Positions 25,955-40,515 of a stretch of 64,000 nucleotides of DNA are shown here, in pieces. Position 1 is the stretch's first letter. Every line of letters starts with the position of its first letter. The stretch is from Tepidiforma thermophila (GTDB lineage Bacteria > Chloroflexota > Dehalococcoidia > Tepidiformales > Tepidiformaceae): NCBI RefSeq assembly GCF_002563855.1, contig NZ_PDJQ01000001.1:62001-126000 (forward strand). The letters run 5' to 3'. The position numbers and the translations under genes were made by a program. Under the pieces are notes generated by a model, which made no database searches, was not told the origin of the DNA, and saw only the letters and a list, made by a program, of their open reading frames with translations.

Positions 25955-27145
25955 ATGGACTTTCGCGATTCCCCGGAAGAGGCAGCGTTCCGGGCCGAGG
26001 TGCGGGCCTGGATCGCGGAGAACCTGCCGGACGCGCTGAAGGGCGATGCCGGCGAAGGTGAATGGGGCCAGCTTTCGAGCGGCCACGAGCGGGACAAGGA
26101 GGCGCTGGCGGAGTGGCGGCGGCGGCTGCAATCGCGGGGATGGGTGGCGCCGGCGTGGCCGAAGAAGTACGGTGGCGCGGAGCTGCCGGTGATGCAGCAG
26201 TTCATCCTGAAGGAGGAGATGGCCCGCGCCCGGGCGCCGCGATTCGGCGGGGTGGGGATCGGCTGGGTGGCGCCGACGCTGATGCAGTACGGCGAGGAGT
26301 GGATGAAGGAGCGGTTCATCGAGCCGATTCTTTCGGGGAAGGAGCGGTGGTGCCAGGGGTTCAGCGAGCCGGGCGCGGGCTCGGATCTGGCGAGCGTGCA
26401 GACGCGGGCGGTACGGGATGGCGACGATTATGTCATCAACGGCCAGAAGATCTGGACGAGCGGCGCGCACATTGCGGACTGGATGATCCTGCTGGCGCGG
26501 ACCGACCCTTCGGCGCCGAAGCACAAGGGGCTCTCGTACTTCCTGGTGGATATGAAATCGCCGGGGATCACGCTCTCGCCGATTATCAACATGGTTGGGA
26601 ACAGCGGGTTCAACCAGGTGTTCTTCGAGAATGTGCGGGTGCCGGCGCGGAACATGGTGGGGGAGGAGAACCGGGGCTGGTACGTGGCGGCGACGACGCT
26701 GGACTTCGAACGGAGCCTGGTGGACCTGTGCGTGGAGTACCGGGCGATCCTCGAGGAGGCGGTTGCCTGTGCGAAGGCGGAGGGGCTGACGAACCTGGCG
26801 TGGGCGCGGCACCGGCTGGCCGATTTGTTCATTGAGGTCGAGGTGGCCCGGAACCTGAGCCTGCGGGTGGTTTCGATGCAGGCGCGGGGGGTGCAGCCGA
26901 ACTACGAGGCGAGCATTGTGAAGCTGTACGCGAGCGAAGTGGAGCAGCGGATGGCTGCGGTGATCTACCGGATGGCGGGGCTGCGGGGGCAGATTACGTC
27001 GCGGGGAGCCTCGCGCTGGGAGCTGCTGATGGGCCGGATCGGCCGGTTCCAGCTGCACTCGGTCGCGGCGACGATCGGCGGGGGCACGAGCGAGGTGCAG
27101 CGGAACATCATCGCGACGCGCGGGCTCGGGCTGCCGCGGGCGTAA
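25955..27145 (+). CDS. Acyl-CoA dehydrogenase
   Basis: 396 residues. It has the same architecture as the enzyme at 18143: DSPEEAAFRAEVRAWIAENL, APAWPKKYGGAELPVMQQFI, WCQGFSEPGAGSDLASVQTR, YVINGQKIWTSGAHIADWM and the ATRGLGLPRA end. It is longer by a GDAGEGEWGQLSSGHERDKE insertion at about residues 30-50. FAD-dependent oxidation of an acyl-CoA in the cytoplasm is expected. It begins a plus-strand run with DUF2277, tesB and an LLM oxidoreductase. Confidence 0.95.
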   Translation: MDFRDSPEEAAFRAEVRAWIAENLPDALKGDAGEGEWGQLSSGHERDKEALAEWRRRLQSRGWVAPAWPKKYGGAELPVMQQFILKEEMARARAPRFGGVGIGWVAPTLMQYGEEWMKERFIEPILSGKERWCQGFSEPGAGSDLASVQTRAVRDGDDYVINGQKIWTSGAHIADWMILLARTDPSAPKHKGLSYFLVDMKSPGITLSPIINMVGNSGFNQVFFENVRVPARNMVGEENRGWYVAATTLDFERSLVDLCVEYRAILEEAVACAKAEGLTNLAWARHRLADLFIEVEVARNLSLRVVSMQARGVQPNYEASIVKLYASEVEQRMAAVIYRMAGLRGQITSRGASRWELLMGRIGRFQLHSVAATIGGGTSEVQRNIIATRGLGLPRA

Positions 27146-33214: not shown

Positions 33215-33543
33215 GGGAGCGGTTTCGGCCGCTGTTGGTGATGCGGGCGTGGCCGGCGCCGGAGCATTTCGAGGCATTCGCCCGGTGGGCGCGGGAGGTG
33301 CACGTCCGCGACACGGGGGCGGTGCCCGGCGTGCGGCGGGTGGAGGTGGGGCTGGCGCCGGAGGGGGTGGTGCTGGTGGTGTACGTGTTTGAAGATGCCG
33401 ATTCGGTGCCGGTGGCGTTGCAAAGCCCGGAGGCGGCCTACGCCCGGGGCACGCTCCAGCAGTGGCTGGGGAAGGTGTACGAGGTGCGGTTCGAGATGCT
33501 GACGGCGGTGGCGCCGGAGCAGGCGTTCGCCTCGATCAACTGA
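33211..33543 (+). CDS. Small dimeric alpha/beta-barrel-like hypothetical protein
   Basis: 110 residues, GTG start overlapping the kinase stop. Segments LLVMRAWPAPEHFEAFARWA, PGVRRVEVGLAPEGVVLVVY and YEVRFEMLTAVAP give a beta-alpha-beta-beta pattern like small ferredoxin-like or EthD-type domains (DUF4286-like). No catalytic residues can be assigned. Translationally coupled to the kinase. Confidence 0.7.
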   Translation: MRERFRPLLVMRAWPAPEHFEAFARWAREVHVRDTGAVPGVRRVEVGLAPEGVVLVVYVFEDADSVPVALQSPEAAYARGTLQQWLGKVYEVRFEMLTAVAPEQAFASIN

Positions 33544-33564
33544 GGCGCGGACAGCGGAACGGCT

Positions 33565-33592
33565 CCGGCCCGCAGCCGGGGCTGCGGGCCGG
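33565..33592. terminator. Bidirectional hairpin between convergent genes
   Basis: CCGGCCCGCAGCC (33565-33577), loop GG, then GGCTGCGGGCCGG (33580-33592): a perfect 13-bp stem. It lies between the ends of the plus-strand hypothetical gene (33543) and the minus-strand aldehyde dehydrogenase (33618). No U-run, as elsewhere in this window. Confidence 0.6.
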
Positions 33593-33617
33593 GCGAGTCG
33601 ATAGAGCGGGGGCGGCG

Positions 33618-35102
33618 CTACTGGAGCTTGATCTGGATGGACTTGGTCTCCATGTACTCCTCGAGGCCGAGGTCGCCGAGTTCGCGGCCGAGGCCGCTCT
33701 GCTTGTAGCCGCCGTAGGGCATGTTGTAGAGGCCGGTGGAGTGGTAGGCGTTGACCCAGACGGTGCCGGCGCGGAGGCCTTTGGCGACTTTCAGGGCGAC
33801 GTTGATGTCCTTCGTCCAGACGGCTGCGGCAAGGCCGTACATGGTGTCGTTGGCGATGCGGATGACATCGTCGAGGTTGTCGAAGGAGAGGACGGAGAGG
33901 ACGGGACCGAAGATCTCTTCGCGGGCGATGGTGGCCTGCGCGGGGACCTCATCGAAGATGGTGGGTTTGACGAAGAGGCCTTTTTCGAGGCCGGGGTCGG
34001 TGGCGCGGGAGCCGCCGGTGAGCAGCTTCGCTTCCTGCCTGCCGCGTTCGAGGTAGCTCTCGATCTTTGCGAGCTGGTTTTCGTTGATGACCGGGCCCAT
34101 GGTGGTGGCGGGGTCGAAGGGGTCGCCGAGCTTGAGCGTTTGGCTGAGGGCGGTGAGCTTCGCGACGAATTCGTCCTTGATCGGCTTCGCGACGAGGAGG
34201 CGGGAGCCGGCCTGGCAGACCTGGCCGCTGTTGAGGTAGATGCCGAAGAAGGCGCCGGCGACGGCGGCATCGAGGGCGGCATCGGGGAAGACGATGTTGG
34301 GGGACTTGCCGCCGAGTTCGAGGCTGACCTTTTTGACGTTGTTTGCGGCGGCGCGCATGACGGCCTTGCCGCTGGCGGTGGAGCCGGTGAAGGCGACCTT
34401 ATCGACGAGCTCGGAGGCGGCGATGTGCTGGCCGACGAGAGCGCCGTTATCGGTTTCGCTGGTGACAACGTTGAAGACGCCGTCCGGCAGGCCGGCTTCG
34501 GCGAGGAGGCCGGCGAGCATGAGGGTGGAGCCGGGGGTGTAGTGGGAGGGCTTGGCCACCATGGTGCAGCCGGCGGCGATGGCGGGGCCGATCTTCCAGG
34601 AGATGAGAAGGAGCGGGAAGTTCCAGGGGGTGATGATGCCGACCACGCCGACGGGTTCATGGGCGACGATGCCGACGGCGTCGGGGATTTGCTGGGTGAA
34701 GGATTCGCCTTTGAGGTTGAGGGCCTTGGCGGCGAAGAGCTGGAAGACCTCGGCGGTGGCCATGACTTCGCCGAGGGCCATGGTCTTAGGCTTGCCGACT
34801 TCGGCGGCGATGCAGGTGGCGAAGGCATCGGCGCGCTCGGCGAGGAGGTCGGCGGCCCGGCGGAGGATGCGTGCGCGGTCGGCGGCGGGGGAGGTGGGCC
34901 AGGAGGTCTCGTCGAAGGCGCGGCGCGCGGCGCGGATGGCGCGCTCGGCGTCTTCGATGCCGCTGTTGGGGTAGACGCCGACGACGGAGCCGTCGTAGGG
35001 GCTGGTGCGGGTGAAGGTTGCGCCGCTGAGGGCGTCGACCCACTGGCCGTCGATGAACTGCTGGTAGGTGGTGACGCCGGGGCGTTCGGCGATGGACGTC
35101 AT
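33618..35102 (-). CDS. Aldehyde dehydrogenase family protein
   Basis: 494 residues, full length. NAD(P)-dependent oxidation of an aldehyde to a carboxylate. Landmarks: VGIITPWNFPLLLISWKIGP, FTGSTASGKAVMRAAANNVK, the catalytic Glu in SLELGGKSPNIVFPDA, the nucleophile Cys in LNSGQVCQAGSRLLV, and EEIFGPVLSVLSF. The C-terminal MPYGGYKQSGLGRELGDLGL end is typical of betaine or phenylacetaldehyde dehydrogenases. A GGAGG-type site precedes ATG 35102. Confidence 0.96.
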   Translation of the reverse strand: MTSIAERPGVTTYQQFIDGQWVDALSGATFTRTSPYDGSVVGVYPNSGIEDAERAIRAARRAFDETSWPTSPAADRARILRRAADLLAERADAFATCIAAEVGKPKTMALGEVMATAEVFQLFAAKALNLKGESFTQQIPDAVGIVAHEPVGVVGIITPWNFPLLLISWKIGPAIAAGCTMVAKPSHYTPGSTLMLAGLLAEAGLPDGVFNVVTSETDNGALVGQHIAASELVDKVAFTGSTASGKAVMRAAANNVKKVSLELGGKSPNIVFPDAALDAAVAGAFFGIYLNSGQVCQAGSRLLVAKPIKDEFVAKLTALSQTLKLGDPFDPATTMGPVINENQLAKIESYLERGRQEAKLLTGGSRATDPGLEKGLFVKPTIFDEVPAQATIAREEIFGPVLSVLSFDNLDDVIRIANDTMYGLAAAVWTKDINVALKVAKGLRAGTVWVNAYHSTGLYNMPYGGYKQSGLGRELGDLGLEEYMETKSIQIKLQ

Positions 35103-35171
35103 GGGGAGGGGCCTCCTTTCGTGCTGTCGGTGGGAGCATATCGAGAGGGGGGAAGGGATGCCAGCGGGCGG

Positions 35172-35582
35172 CTAAAAGACGATGATGGCCGCCACCGGCA
35201 GCAGCGCCAGGGCGGCGGCGCGGACGATGGTCCCGGTACCGATTGGCCCTGCAGTCCTCCCGAAGCACCCGCACGAGGGGTTGACACTTCGCTTGAGAAT
35301 CACGGCCTGGCCTGCCGCAAGCAGCAAGAACAGCGGGGCGAGCAACGCAAGAGCCGCGACCTGGCGTCCCATCAACGTGAGACCAATCGCAGCCAGGCCC
35401 GTGGCGACCTCAGCCGCCGGCAGCCCGGTGGTGAACGGCTGAATCCCACGCGGGGGAAGGACCCCCCAGGCGACGATCGCGGAGGCGAATTCGCGGCGGA
35501 ACCGAAGCTTGATGACGCCAGCGATGACAGCAACCGACGCCGGAATGCCAATGGCCAAGTACTGCATGCCCTGAATCATCAT
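35172..35582 (-). CDS. MauE/DoxX-like redox-associated membrane protein
   Basis: 136 residues from ATG 35582 (GGGAG upstream). Four membrane helices (about 8-24, 55-70, 74-92, 114-135). A conserved cysteine pair, Cys104 and Cys106 in VNPSCGCFGRTAG, precedes the last helix, as in MauE. MauE is needed, with MauD, for the disulfide-rich small subunit of methylamine dehydrogenase; relatives are thought to pass electrons for oxidative folding. Here it ends a lower-GC operon that encodes a 14-cysteine protein. No mau genes are nearby. Confidence 0.8.
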   Translation of the reverse strand: MMIQGMQYLAIGIPASVAVIAGVIKLRFRREFASAIVAWGVLPPRGIQPFTTGLPAAEVATGLAAIGLTLMGRQVAALALLAPLFLLLAAGQAVILKRSVNPSCGCFGRTAGPIGTGTIVRAAALALLPVAAIIVF

Positions 35583-35610
35583 GCGGCTCCCAAGCTCAGC
35601 CTCATCGCGG

Positions 35611-36300
35611 TTAACGTTTGACGTCAGACGGTGGGTACACGACGGCGTCTCCGTTGGCCTCCCAGAAGGACACCAGACCCGGTGGAGACGCGCCGCAGCC
35701 GAAGTACACCCCAACTATTCCGCTCTCCTTGACCGAAACCGCGCGACCGGCGCCTGACTCGACCCCGTAGACGAGGACGTAGGCCCGTTCGGGCGATCCG
35801 AAAGACTCCCTCGCCCAGACCACAGCGTGCAACTCGGCGCCTTCGTCGCGGAGGCCAATGATGCGATCCACAACCCCTGCCCCCGCCGGCACGCTAAAGC
35901 CCTCGCAGTCGCCGATTACGATAAATTGCCCGACAAGCGTTCCGGGGCTCGATCCGGGTGGACACGTCGGGTTCGGCCCGGCACCAATTCCCGGCGTTGG
36001 AGTCTGGCCACACGGTTCAGGCTCACCGCCGAGCAGTTGGAGCAGTCTGGCAGCATCCCGATCCCGGATCGCTTCGGCGACCTCTACTACAACAGGTGGC
36101 AGTGGCGAGCGAGCCGGGTCCGCCGTGGCCGAGGGCGTCGCTGAAGACGCGGACGTGGCCTGCGTGCCGCCGGCCGTGGCGGAAGCAGCCGGCGTTTGAG
36201 TCTGGTCGTCGCCTGAACAGCCAACGGCCAGCCAGAGCAAGAGACTCAGTAGGAGTACCTGAAGACCCATGAGAGACTGCGGAGCATCGTATCGCCGCAT
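35611..36300 (-). CDS. Secreted lipoprotein of unknown function
   Basis: 229 residues. Signal peptide with lipobox: LLLSLLLWLAVGCSG, Cys near residue 28, then a Thr/Ala/Ser-rich linker (33-65). The C-terminal 150 residues form one globular domain with FIVIGDCEGFSVPAGAG, ELHAVVWARESFGSPERAYV and YFGCGASPPGLVSF; five cysteines lie in it. ATG 36300 gives overlap with the end of the cysteine-rich gene; ATG 36270 is a possible shorter start. Base composition is lower in GC than neighbours. Confidence 0.75.
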   Translation of the reverse strand: MRRYDAPQSLMGLQVLLLSLLLWLAVGCSGDDQTQTPAASATAGGTQATSASSATPSATADPARSPLPPVVVEVAEAIRDRDAARLLQLLGGEPEPCGQTPTPGIGAGPNPTCPPGSSPGTLVGQFIVIGDCEGFSVPAGAGVVDRIIGLRDEGAELHAVVWARESFGSPERAYVLVYGVESGAGRAVSVKESGIVGVYFGCGASPPGLVSFWEANGDAVVYPPSDVKR

Positions 36301-36866
36301 GATATACTCGCATTCACGACAGAATTACCGCAACGCTCCCAATGGAGGTGTTGCCCTGTATAGCATCGCCCGCACGAACCAGATGGTACGGAGCCTATCA
36401 CCTTGTAAGCGTGCCCTGTTCCAGGCTCAATTGATGTATTGTAATATCCGCTCGCAATGGCATTATTCACATGGACAAATATAACAACCCCTAGAAATGT
36501 GCCACTACCGTTCAGCCCAGAGTACATGTAGACGGTCATGACCCTCGTGTACGGAAGCGAGCTGCACCCAGATCCGCTCGAGCAGGCATTGCTGGCCAGT
36601 CCAACCCAGATCGAAGCGACGATTGGGTCAGCAGTGAACACGATGTCTGGGGTTCCACCACCAGTGCTGATATCCTGTGGCTCATTGCAAGATACTGAGG
36701 GGTGGCAGCACGGACCGCATGTGTATGCCCCGCCGCAGTACTTGCCTGTGGCTGCCATCTGACTACTGTTCCCGCAGCCGTTTGGGTCTGCCGGACAGGC
36801 GACGGGACCGGTCCAGCAGGAAGTCACTGTACCGGTTATGGGCGCATACCCATAGAAGCCAGGCAC
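36246..36866 (-). CDS. Cysteine-rich protein with M23-peptidase-like C-terminal motif
   Basis: 206 residues, GTG start at 36866 with AGGGG seven bases upstream; an in-frame TAG at 36882-36884 excludes a longer start. Fourteen cysteines, eight of them within residues 17-60 (e.g. YCGGAYTCGPCCHP). The end RCYTGQHLHWERCG (His173, His175) plus GVVIFVHVNN (His132) recall the M23 metallopeptidase HxH site, but the usual HxxxD is not clear. It has no signal peptide, although such cysteine content implies an oxidising compartment. Codon use and GC differ from the surrounding genome. Confidence 0.65.
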   Translation of the reverse strand: MPGFYGYAPITGTVTSCWTGPVACPADPNGCGNSSQMAATGKYCGGAYTCGPCCHPSVSCNEPQDISTGGGTPDIVFTADPIVASIWVGLASNACSSGSGCSSLPYTRVMTVYMYSGLNGSGTFLGVVIFVHVNNAIASGYYNTSIEPGTGHAYKVIGSVPSGSCGRCYTGQHLHWERCGNSVVNASISCGDTMLRSLSWVFRYSY

Positions 36867-36900
36867 GAAACATTCCCCTTTCTATCGAAGGTTCATTGCG

Positions 36901-37566
36901 TTAAACCTGCTGGAATTCGAACGGAAATCTCTCCGCCGGCAAAGCGGGGGCGCGCATCGTGGCAGTCATTCTGTACAGTCCTTCGTCGGACGCCCAGATT
37001 GCCACGATTTCGAGAGGGGCAGTCCAATATATTCCCGCGACGGGCGTCGCCGAGGTCTTTGCCGGGAACACTGGTCGCTCCGGGATGCCTGCGACAGGGA
37101 CGGGATATGGCCGAATATAGTGAGGCTGAGCGGTGATGACTATGGATGAGTACGGACCGTCTTCGGCCTCCGTGATCGTGGCTACCTCGAATACCCGGGA
37201 GCCAGAAAACGTGGCTCGGATCGATGAGACCGGTTGCCCTTTGACCTTCCAGAGGGGGACACCCAAGGATCGCGCTTCAGCGCCGGAAAGCGAACGCGCA
37301 AATCCGGTCGGTTCGGGCCCGTCCCCGATCTTCTCCAGTATCGGTGGAGCGAGCACCGGCACTCTCTCCGGCGCCGGGCGGGTTGCGCCGGGTGCGAGAA
37401 GCAGGAGCCCGTTGTAAAGCTCTCCCGCGTCCGAGCCGCGCCCATCAGCGGCACGGGCGGCATCGCGGCTTCGGAGGCCCAGCGGGTCAACCATGGCGCC
37501 GGCCACCGCCATGGGGCCGGCTGCCAGCTTGCGGAGGATCTGTCGGCGCGTCGCTTCGCGAAACAT
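36901..37566 (-). CDS. Putative Tat-exported protein of unknown function
   Basis: 221 residues. The N-terminus has a twin-arginine motif (TRRQILRKLAAG) followed by a short hydrophobic stretch (PMAVAGAMV), suggesting Tat export. The mature part has no cysteines and contains PTGFARSLSGAEARSLGVPL, YSSIVITAQPHYIRPYPVPV and YWTAPLEIVAIWASDEGLY, probably a beta-rich fold. It lies 34 bases before the cysteine-rich gene in the same operon. Family not recognised. Confidence 0.65.
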   Translation of the reverse strand: MFREATRRQILRKLAAGPMAVAGAMVDPLGLRSRDAARAADGRGSDAGELYNGLLLLAPGATRPAPERVPVLAPPILEKIGDGPEPTGFARSLSGAEARSLGVPLWKVKGQPVSSIRATFSGSRVFEVATITEAEDGPYSSIVITAQPHYIRPYPVPVAGIPERPVFPAKTSATPVAGIYWTAPLEIVAIWASDEGLYRMTATMRAPALPAERFPFEFQQV

Positions 37567-37642
37567 CTCTTTGTCTCCGATTGCCCGCCGGGGGACCGGA
37601 ATAAGCCTACCCTCCGGCGCCGGGCCGATGTGAGAATATTTC

Positions 37643-37942
37643 TCAGAAGATGCGGTTTTCCCTGATCATTTTGAACGCTGGCGCGCAGCAGCAGGTTCCG
37701 TGCAGCTCGGCCCAAGTACGAAGGAAAGCCCGGGTTGGCTCGAATCCAACCGGGTCCAGAACGTGGCAGGCAAGCTCTCTTATGTGGCGATAGACGGCCT
37801 TCGAACTTTGGCCGCTGGCTGCGGCGATGTCCGGCGGAGCCCAGCCCACGCAGATGGCAGCTACCAGGCGCTGCTGGTAGCCGTTCAGCTCACGCACGTG
37901 GTGCCTGCCCAACACGCGGAGCACCTCGCTCGGCTGATACAT
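37643..37942 (-). CDS. LuxR-type helix-turn-helix regulator (small)
   Basis: 99 residues from ATG 37942, chosen because AGGAG lies eight bases upstream; longer readings lack a site. The HTH is in residues 20-70: LNGYQQRLVAAICVGWAPPD then IAAASGQSSKAVYRHIRELA, the pattern of LuxR/sigma-4 DNA-binding domains. It has no receiver or other sensor domain. As the first gene of the lower-GC island it is a likely local regulator. Confidence 0.7.
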   Translation of the reverse strand: MYQPSEVLRVLGRHHVRELNGYQQRLVAAICVGWAPPDIAAASGQSSKAVYRHIRELACHVLDPVGFEPTRAFLRTWAELHGTCCCAPAFKMIRENRIF

Positions 37943-38112: not shown

Positions 38113-38907
38113 TCACTTCACCGGCTCGCGGGCGGGGAGGCGGGCGGCGAGCGCCCGGGCGGCTGGATGCCAGAACCGTTCGATGAGGAGGGCGATGCCG
38201 AAGCCGGCGAAGGCGACGATGCCGCCGAAGACGGCATCGAGGATGAAGTGGTTCCCGGTCATGACGACAGCGAAGAACATCGCGACCGGCCAGGCGACGC
38301 CGAAAGCGACGGCGAGCGGATGCCGCCCGACCCAGGCGACGACGGCGCCGAGGAGGAGCGACCAGCCGAAGTGGAGGCTGGGGACGGCGGCGAAGGGGTT
38401 GACGAAGGCTTCGGTCTCCTGGGCGTTGTAGCCGAAGCGGTCGAAGGCGGCCATGGTATCGATGAAGCCGGAGAAGGGGACGAGCCGCGGCGGGGCGACG
38501 GGGAAGAGCCAGTAGATGACGACGCCGATGGCCCCTGAGGCGAGGAAGGCGTTCCGGGTGCTGTAGTAGGCGCGGCGGTGGAAGACGAAGAGCCAGACGG
38601 CGAGGAGGGCGACGAGGGGCATGTGGCCCCAGAAGTAGACCCAGTTGAGTGCCCGGATGGCCCAGTAGGAATCGAGAATCCAGCTCTGCATACGGAGCTC
38701 CCAGTAGATGCGGAGCTGCTGCTCGAGTTCGATGAGGTTGAAGGCGCGGACCATCGCCTCGCCGGCGCGGTCGACGACGAGGCCCCGGACGGTGAAGTAG
38801 ATGAGGAAGGCGACGACGACCACGACGGCTTCGTAGATGCCGTACTGCCGGATGAGTGCCCAGGCCCGGGCGAGGCGGTGAGCGGTGCGGTCGAATCGGG
38901 GCGCCAT
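38113..38907 (-). CDS. PAP2-superfamily membrane phosphatase / inositol phosphotransferase-like
   Basis: 264 residues from ATG 38907 with six membrane helices. The PAP2_3 motifs are present: AAVPSLHFGWSLLLG (catalytic His) and MTGNHFILDAVFG (second His and Asp), and an N-terminal WGHMPLVALLAVWLF helix. Relatives include Aur1/Ipt1-type enzymes that move phospho-head groups between lipids. It is divergent from pepA. A longer reading frame exists upstream but overlaps pepA control sequence. Confidence 0.88.
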   Translation of the reverse strand: MAPRFDRTAHRLARAWALIRQYGIYEAVVVVVAFLIYFTVRGLVVDRAGEAMVRAFNLIELEQQLRIYWELRMQSWILDSYWAIRALNWVYFWGHMPLVALLAVWLFVFHRRAYYSTRNAFLASGAIGVVIYWLFPVAPPRLVPFSGFIDTMAAFDRFGYNAQETEAFVNPFAAVPSLHFGWSLLLGAVVAWVGRHPLAVAFGVAWPVAMFFAVVMTGNHFILDAVFGGIVAFAGFGIALLIERFWHPAARALAARLPAREPVK

Positions 38908-39006
38908 GGGGATCCGCGAGTGGCCGCAGGCGGTTGCCGCGACGATAATGCTGATTTCAAGGTAGCACGCCGGCGGCATGCCGGGACTTCGACGGGGGAA
39001 CGGAAC

Positions 39007-40515
39007 GTGAAGGTACGTGTCGAGCAAGGCGATATCACCCGGGCAGCGGCGGATGCGGTCGTCGTGAACCTGTTCGAAGGTGTGACGGTGCCGGGGGGCG
39101 GGACCGGCGCGGTGGATATGGCGCTGGGCGGTGCAATTTCACAGGTGATCGCCGCGGGCGACCTGCGAGGCAAGGCCGGCGAGCTGGTGACGATCCACAC
39201 GCTGGGGCGGATGCCTGCGCCGCGCGTGCTGGTGGCCGGGCTGGGGAACCGCGACGAGTTCGACATCGACGCGGTGCGGAACCTTGCGGCGAACGTGGTG
39301 CGGGCGCTGCGGAGGCCGGGCATCCGCCGGATTGCGACGATTGCGCACGGAGCGGGGATCGCCGGGCTCGACCCGGAGGCGTGCGCGCAGGCGATCGCGG
39401 AGGGGTCGATTCTCGGCGGGTACCAGTTCCTGAAGCACAAGTCGAGCGCAGGGGACGACCGGGCGGAGATCGAGGAGGTGGTGATCATCGAGCACGACGC
39501 GTCGAAGGTGGCGGGGATGGCGCGGGCGGCGGAGCGGGGGTCGATCCTGGCGGAGGCGACGAATATCGCGCGGGACTGGGCGAACGAGCCATCGAACCAC
39601 CTGACGCCGACGGTGATGGCGGAGCGAGCTGCGGAGCTGGCGCGGGAGGCGGGGATGGAGTTCGAGGTGCTGGAGCGGGCGGACATGGAGCGGAAGGGGA
39701 TGGGCTCGCTGCTCTCGGTTGCGAAGGGGAGCGTGGAGCCGCCGAAGCTCATCCGGCTCGGCTACCGGGGCCGCGGCGGCGAGGGGTGGGACCTCGCGCT
39801 GGTGGGGAAGGGGATTACGTTCGATACCGGCGGCATCAGCATCAAGCCGGCGGCGAACATGGAGGCGATGAAGGCGGACATGACCGGCGCCGCGAACGTG
39901 ATAACGGCGGCGTGGGCCCTGGCGCGGCTGGGAGCGAAGCTGAACGTGCTGGCGATTGCTCCATGCACGGAGAACATGCCCTCAGGCAGCGCGACGAAGC
40001 CGGGCGACGTGGTCCGGGCGATGAACGGGCGGACGATCGAGGTGATCAACACGGATGCCGAGGGGCGGCTCGTGCTGGCGGACGCGATCTGCTGGGCGAA
40101 CGAGCTGGGCGCGAAGCGGATTGTCGACGTGGCGACGCTGACCGGGGCGGTGACGACGGCGCTCGGGGACGTGTGCTACGCGCTGATGACGAACGACGAT
40201 GCGCTCTGCCGGGAGGTGGAGGCGGCGGCTGCGGCGGCGGGGGAGAAGACCTGGCGGCTGCCGATGTGGAAGGAGTACGACGAGTACATCAAGAGCGATG
40301 TGGCCGACTGCCGGAACGTCGGCGCCGGGAACCGGGGTGCGGGGACGATTGTCGGGGCGAAGTTCCTGGAGCCGTTCGCGGGGAAGACGCCGTGGGTGCA
40401 CCTCGACATCGCCGGGGTGGACAACATGTCGTCGGACCGGGGCTGGGTGACGAAGGGTGCGAGCGGCTACAGCGTGCGGGCGCTCATCAACCTGGGGCTG
40501 CGGCTGGCGCAGTAG
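39007..40515 (+). CDS. pepA: Leucyl aminopeptidase (M17)
   Basis: 502 residues, GTG start at 39007 with GGGGGAA upstream. N-terminal macro-like domain (1-170), then the M17 catalytic domain: NEPSNHLTPTVMAERAAEL, the active-site loop GKGITFDTGGISIKP, MKADMTGAANVI, and NTDAEGRLVLADAICWANEL with the two-zinc ligands. The catalytic Lys and Arg are both present. It removes N-terminal residues from peptides as a hexamer. A GC-rich hairpin follows at once. Confidence 0.97.
   Translation: MKVRVEQGDITRAAADAVVVNLFEGVTVPGGGTGAVDMALGGAISQVIAAGDLRGKAGELVTIHTLGRMPAPRVLVAGLGNRDEFDIDAVRNLAANVVRALRRPGIRRIATIAHGAGIAGLDPEACAQAIAEGSILGGYQFLKHKSSAGDDRAEIEEVVIIEHDASKVAGMARAAERGSILAEATNIARDWANEPSNHLTPTVMAERAAELAREAGMEFEVLERADMERKGMGSLLSVAKGSVEPPKLIRLGYRGRGGEGWDLALVGKGITFDTGGISIKPAANMEAMKADMTGAANVITAAWALARLGAKLNVLAIAPCTENMPSGSATKPGDVVRAMNGRTIEVINTDAEGRLVLADAICWANELGAKRIVDVATLTGAVTTALGDVCYALMTNDDALCREVEAAAAAAGEKTWRLPMWKEYDEYIKSDVADCRNVGAGNRGAGTIVGAKFLEPFAGKTPWVHLDIAGVDNMSSDRGWVTKGASGYSVRALINLGLRLAQ

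Follow-up and report, generated by a model that had tools for sequence, protein, structure and literature searches.

In Tat hitchhiker pairs, such as the one involving the gamma subunit of FAD glucose dehydrogenase (PMC6719666), the Tat signal sits on a small protein, which carries along a leaderless partner whose gene is adjacent; heterodimeric Tat cargo with a single signal is likewise known (PMC10924467). Disulfide formation in the cytoplasm followed by Tat export has been engineered in E. coli with the artificial CyDisCo-Tat secretion system (PMC6350376). MauE (PF07291), a membrane protein linked in the mau cluster to a cysteine-rich exported protein, has been given a speculative role in disulfide formation in the beta subunit of methylamine dehydrogenase (PMC7794033). 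The other described families that resemble parts of the locus reported here are the DCC1-like oxidoreductases (PF04134) and the M23/LytM peptidases (PF01551). The literature searched, which covered few subscription journals, held no paper connecting MauE with Tat signals and no description of this combination of components.

The locus lies in the window (the whole 64-kb stretch of DNA that was analysed), part of a 2.74-Mb, single-contig genome; loci of the same genus are referred to below as Tepidiforma. A sequence-only reading had proposed five linked genes on one strand. All five ORFs were confirmed on the minus strand, in the order HTH, A, B, C and MauE, with PAP2 and aldehyde dehydrogenase (ALDH) genes on either side:

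38113-39027, minus strand: PAP2 gene (PF14378), flank outside the system, upstream border of the cluster
37643-37942, minus strand: gene for a small HTH regulator of 99 aa that resembles sigma-70 region 4/LuxR, two adjacent Cys conserved near the C-terminus
36901-37566, minus strand: gene A, putative Tat-signal carrier protein, 221 aa, starting TRRQILRKLAAG, with a beta-rich extracytoplasmic domain
36246-36866, minus strand: gene B, leaderless 14-Cys M23/LytM-like protein, 206 aa, GTG start
35611-36270, minus strand: gene C, small lipoprotein, with lipobox LAVGC in the translation
35172-35582, minus strand: MauE-family membrane protein (PF07291), four TM segments, CGCFG motif
33618-35102, minus strand: aldehyde dehydrogenase gene (PF00171), flank outside the system, downstream border of the cluster

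Gene C overlaps the end of gene B by 25 nt, the frame of gene B is closed 5 codons upstream of its start, and MauE begins at the ATG at 35582 rather than with the longer TTG ORF. A comparison of two Tepidiforma species shows purifying selection on each of the five genes (dN/dS 0.19-0.49), and 14 of 14 B cysteines are kept in another Tepidiforma species; by these criteria they are real genes, and the selection rules out a reading of the cluster as chance ORFs. An antisense ORF on the plus strand (33462-35621) was rejected as a gene; it has no family match and overlaps ALDH. The membrane protein, earlier called MauE-like, is a genuine family member (54.2 bits against a PF07291 cut-off of 27). 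A Pfam scan of the five genes and both flanks matched only MauE, PAP2 and ALDH, with no linked mau structural gene among them. A and B had no match in Pfam, NCBIfam or PDB, save that some A proteins begin with a DCC1-like domain; for gene C neither Pfam nor NCBIfam offered a convincing match, and the HTH protein matched only weakly there.

Export signals were called by motif and hydropathy rather than with a trained predictor. Window A has a twin-arginine motif (TRRQILRK) and a weakly hydrophobic segment; its extracytoplasmic domain matched no Pfam or PDB family, and a structure model built from a three-row alignment (mean pLDDT 52) was unusable and had no significant PDB fold match. A TatC gene is present in the genome. 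Most intact pairs combine an RR signal on A with a leaderless B; this arrangement is found in Tepidiforma and in G008, G010, G548, G295 (three copies), G530, G576, G609 and G640. Two loci, L103 and L105, have the arrangement swapped, with the Tat signal on B and a leaderless A, and in L104 the Tat signal is on B while A is a lipoprotein. The two types of A are bridged through L104 (hhalign probabilities of 86% and 84%, P about 5e-6; controls near 0); the A-position genes of L106 and L109 are at most putative homologues. Five further genomes were opened after the rule of one signal per pair had been stated: the three intact pairs (L165, L166 and L167) all obey it, one locus is decayed (L168) and one is a remnant (L169). 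The exceptions are L044, where B and MauE are intact but A is reduced to a fragment, L043, where the RR motif is in a neighbouring frame, and G004, where B has a stop at codon 5; the B frame of L103 is interrupted by TAA. Adjacent genes with a Tat signal on one partner only, together with the reciprocal swap in L103 and L105, are what Tat hitchhiking predicts, and the pattern points to this mode of export. The putative cargo here differs from that of described hitchhikers in being a cysteine-rich M23-like protein rather than a cofactor enzyme, and the pair differs in having its signal exchanged between partners among relatives and a dedicated redox module linked to it.

This module takes one of two forms. 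MauE homologues accompany the other genes in L019-L022, L044, L075, L104, L111 and L167, and seven genera have MauE only (g1, g4, g6, g8, g109, g334 and g410). In four genera (g212, g323, g390 and g183) a DCC1-like domain is fused to A: a CxxC domain stands N-terminal to the RR motif in G295, G530, G640, G698 and their relatives, so that the Tat signal is internal and, like the extracytoplasmic domain, comes after it, an arrangement that sets it apart from described DCC1-like proteins. The Pfam match of this domain to PF04134 is weak (best E 0.0011, in 3 of 14 A proteins), with the CxxC near the N-terminus, and in intact pairs with a DCC-type A, B is leaderless. No locus has both modules (Fisher p 0.003, or 0.021 when two genera that have short contigs and lack both modules are counted); the short contigs of L043 and L166 carry neither. 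These p-values are descriptive, as the search itself picked some of the lineages and they are related. Few of the lineages are independent. A single family, f107, holds both solutions (DCC in G640, MauE in G694). The presence of a module tracks the cysteine content of B: cysteines number 3.7-11.5 per 100 aa of mature B at module-linked loci and 1.0-3.1 at loci without one, so that Cys-rich B loci carry MauE or a DCC-fused A and Cys-poor B loci carry neither. Two of the loci opened later, L165 and L167, fit the trend (6.0 and 5.5 Cys per 100 aa). As a separate observation, pieces of the DCC-like N-terminal module are attached directly to secreted HExxHxxGxxH (M10-like) metallopeptidases at L070:3873-4685(-), L070:9104-9871(-) and L074:15326-16162(-), as if the module behaved like a shuffled 5' cassette.

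Both modules are predicted to face the cytoplasm. The CGCFG motif of MauE sits in the loop that precedes the final TM segment, and this loop is positively charged. All seven MauE proteins have a net positive CxC loop and a net positive loop 1, and their termini have almost no positive charge. G010 encodes a natural MauE-lipoprotein fusion (L031/L111:1317-2522(+)) in which the last MauE TM segment doubles as the lipobox signal and leads through the lipobox LAMAC into a domain that resembles the C protein of Tepidiforma (hhalign 89%, P 2e-6; blastp 2e-6). Since that lipoprotein domain would be outside, the CxC loop preceding the TM segment should be inside. The DCC domain, being N-terminal to the Tat signal, should be on the cytoplasmic side as well. 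Two unrelated modules on the same side of the membrane, each tracking cysteine content, suggest that oxidation or quality control of B precedes its export. The MauE at this locus thus resembles that of the mau cluster in family and in its link to a cysteine-rich exported protein, but its neighbours are not mau genes, it is interchangeable with DCC, and its CxC loop is predicted to be cytoplasmic.

Our preferred reading, to which we assign a probability of about 0.6, is that the cluster encodes an export pair (A and B) with a maturation helper, B being oxidised in the cytoplasm and carried by A via Tat. B, a cysteine-rich M23/LytM-like envelope protein, would be made without a signal of its own. 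MauE, or in other lineages the A-fused DCC1-like domain, would hold its CxC or CxxC centre at the cytoplasmic face of the membrane and help to install or proofread the disulfides of B before export; the oxidising direction of this step, and with it the electron flow, is the one we infer. Folded B would then dock on A in a physical complex, and the twin-arginine signal of A would take the pair through Tat. Exported B would act near A and lipoprotein C, probably outside the cell at the cell wall, most likely by attaching to or cleaving peptidoglycan or a different polymer of the wall, with the HTH protein probably regulating the operon. A more specific claim, that a membrane-tethered, cytoplasm-facing thiol oxidase (MauE or DCC) encoded in a natural operon oxidises one protein that is then exported as a Tat passenger, is tentative, and we put it at somewhat under even odds; such an operon would be the natural counterpart of the artificial CyDisCo-Tat arrangement. 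An exported, disulfide-dependent set with its own folding helper had been proposed earlier. That proposal stands insofar as the set is apparently exported, Cys-rich and redox-linked, although the redox motif seems to face the cytoplasm rather than outward. Points beyond it are that B is leaderless and apparently depends on A, and that MauE can be replaced by an A-fused DCC.

Alternatively, A and B could be exported as a pair while MauE oxidises B on the outer face of the membrane with an extracellular thioredoxin, DCC having a different role. The proposed function of MauE in methylamine dehydrogenase maturation would suit this arrangement, the cysteine correlation fits either side of the membrane, and the disulfides of B could form outside after export. 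We nevertheless consider it rather unlikely: the positive-inside charge of all seven MauE proteins and the MauE-lipoprotein fusion place the CxC loop inside, the DCC domain that replaces MauE precedes the Tat signal and would thus be cytoplasmic, and no linked thioredoxin was seen at the loci.

What B does after export depends on its relationship to M23 proteins, to which the sequence-only reading had likened it from motifs. Leaderless members of the B family begin with a motif of the type M-x-x-YVYAPxxG, lack any hydrophobic stretch resembling a signal at the N-terminus, and in family alignments share D65 (nearly), C95, H132, C168, H173 and H175. Compared by hhalign in local mode with an M23 alignment whose members came from the same lineage, B matched with 53% probability (P 1.3e-4), over the C-terminal half only, from H132 to HxH; 100 column-permuted controls reached at most 1.4% and a reversed profile 0.3%. 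In global mode the match was not significant. None of 15 B-family members scored above the M23 (PF01551) cut-off. Of the M23/LytM features, B has GHV with the catalytic His, the G, HxH and the Asp, and a check of the putative zinc site found HxH and H132 invariant and the Asp nearly so. The first zinc His of the canonical HxxxD is displaced or missing, no His standing four residues before the Asp in leaderless members, and B further departs from M23/LytM in its many cysteines and its lack of a signal peptide. Profile-profile comparison thus supports homology of B to M23 below the Pfam threshold. B is M23-like, but assigning it to the M23 peptidases is not warranted, because it fails the defining zinc motif and score, and any predicted catalysis is uncertain because the canonical HxxxD is not conserved. 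A structure model from a three-row alignment (mean pLDDT 31) was too poor to use, and PDB profile searches with B and A were negative. Tepidiforma is a monoderm whose peptidoglycan contains no detectable DAP or lysine (PMC10284905), which makes the cell wall a plausible target.

A lipoprotein adjoins B in most loci; it is a small lipoprotein in some lineages and a propeller-like one in others, and homology of C across genera is partly supported. In G010 an M10-like metallopeptidase (HEMGHWMYLNH; L031/L111:2949-3647(+)) lies just downstream of the A-B-MauE-lipoprotein locus. The HTH protein, with the C-terminal motif GTCCCAPAF...NRIF, was found by tblastn in L019, L020, L021 and L029 (77.8-92% identity), L104 (76%) and L105 (27%, TCC motif kept), and twice in L103; in L022 the gene at this position encodes a LuxR/GerE protein. 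A C-terminal Cys-Cys (TCC or GCC) is common to the HTH proteins at window:37643-37942(-), L105:5680-6069(-), L103:2288-2527(+) and L103:4936-5175(+), and is possibly a redox or metal switch.

An M23-like fold, a lipoprotein adjoining B in most loci, a patchy distribution and a genus with multiple and decayed copies could also describe a secreted antagonistic (bacteriocin-like) M23 toxin with C as its immunity protein. We hold this to be quite unlikely, as the catalytic HxxxD spacing is not kept, C differs between lineages with only partly supported cross-genus homology, and selection between the two species is purifying rather than diversifying. PADLOC anti-phage models matched none of seven proteins (E 0.01), which also tells against the toxin; a defence-system reading was rejected on the same result.

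The absence of a signal peptide on B in the window and in most relatives would fit a cytoplasmic metal or redox sensor, with a secreted neighbour by chance and no joint export. This is very improbable: B homologues carry Tat signals in L103, L104 and L105 and Sec-like signals in L106, L109 and L110, and therefore the B fold appears to work outside; moreover, B resembles wall peptidases and, in intact pairs, leaderless B stands beside a Tat-signal A.

Comparison of neighbourhoods across genomes found the genes together well beyond the window, so the earlier proposal of a linked set survives the condition named for refuting it, namely genes that do not recur together in other genomes. The cluster occupies the same PAP2-ALDH site in G003, G004 and G005, and the PAP2 border is common to L019, L020, L021, L029, L030 and L104. 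Genus g4 (L022/L041) has the complete HTH-A-B-C-MauE order in a different genomic context, and genus g8 (L104) has HTH, B', A' and MauE between the corresponding PAP2 and ALDH genes (HTH 76% and MauE 53% identical to those of the window). In G002 (L030) the cluster is cleanly absent, PAP2 and ALDH being about 110 bp apart at the empty site; G001 keeps the HTH gene, and the rest of the stretch is N-filled. A-B pairs, with or without MauE or DCC, are present in several Chloroflexota families. B relatives were found in 12 of 38 genomes in a family-wide search and are rare elsewhere in the phylum (14 of 396 genomes in the class to which G295 belongs, 1 of 47 in that of G215); plasmid searches for B found nothing. 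A single genome of genus g212 can carry as many as five copies, and part of the copies in this genus are decayed. Broken or partial B copies (L074:2215-5817(-), L076:1522-1967(+), L168:1634-2759(-) and L169:5589-5747(+)) suggest birth and decay of the A-B pair. In the closest species, G004, codon 5 of B is TAA, and a GTG beyond it could serve as a restart (L019:9457-10074(+)), which would mean silent loss or an alternative start. The ALDH gene beside the cluster in G005 (L021:6383-7866(-)) reads in several frames, probably through assembly error or frameshift.

The stretch had been described as AT-richer and as possibly gained by transfer. The composition was confirmed: the hand-counted G+C values hold (50.0% at 36301-36360, 68.3% at 26041-26100), and the lowest-GC 600 bp of the window fall inside the cluster (54.8% at 36301, against a minimum of 61.7% elsewhere). 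The dip is mostly due to gene B (55.4% GC, GC3 59%); A, C, HTH and MauE have 62-66% GC (GC3 69-80%), and the two flanking genes 67% (GC3 about 91%). That the cluster is a recently transferred island encoding an exported complex, as its AT-richness against the flanks and its absence from G002 might suggest, is highly improbable, given that the same site is filled in another genus (L104) and that the L022 and L104 copies are also low in GC. The cluster site shared with g8 argues instead for old presence followed by loss in G002.

Together, these comparisons lead us to regard the cluster as a real, conserved and undescribed system whose proposed mechanism is well motivated. If that mechanism is true, MauE, a family of unclear mechanism, gains a testable topology, with its CxC inside, and a functional equivalent in DCC, and a natural system would be found to join cytoplasmic disulfide formation to Tat export. 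It would also give a name to B, a protein family absent from Pfam, NCBIfam and PDB, whose hosts are peptidoglycan-containing Chloroflexota with chemically unusual walls (PMC10284905).
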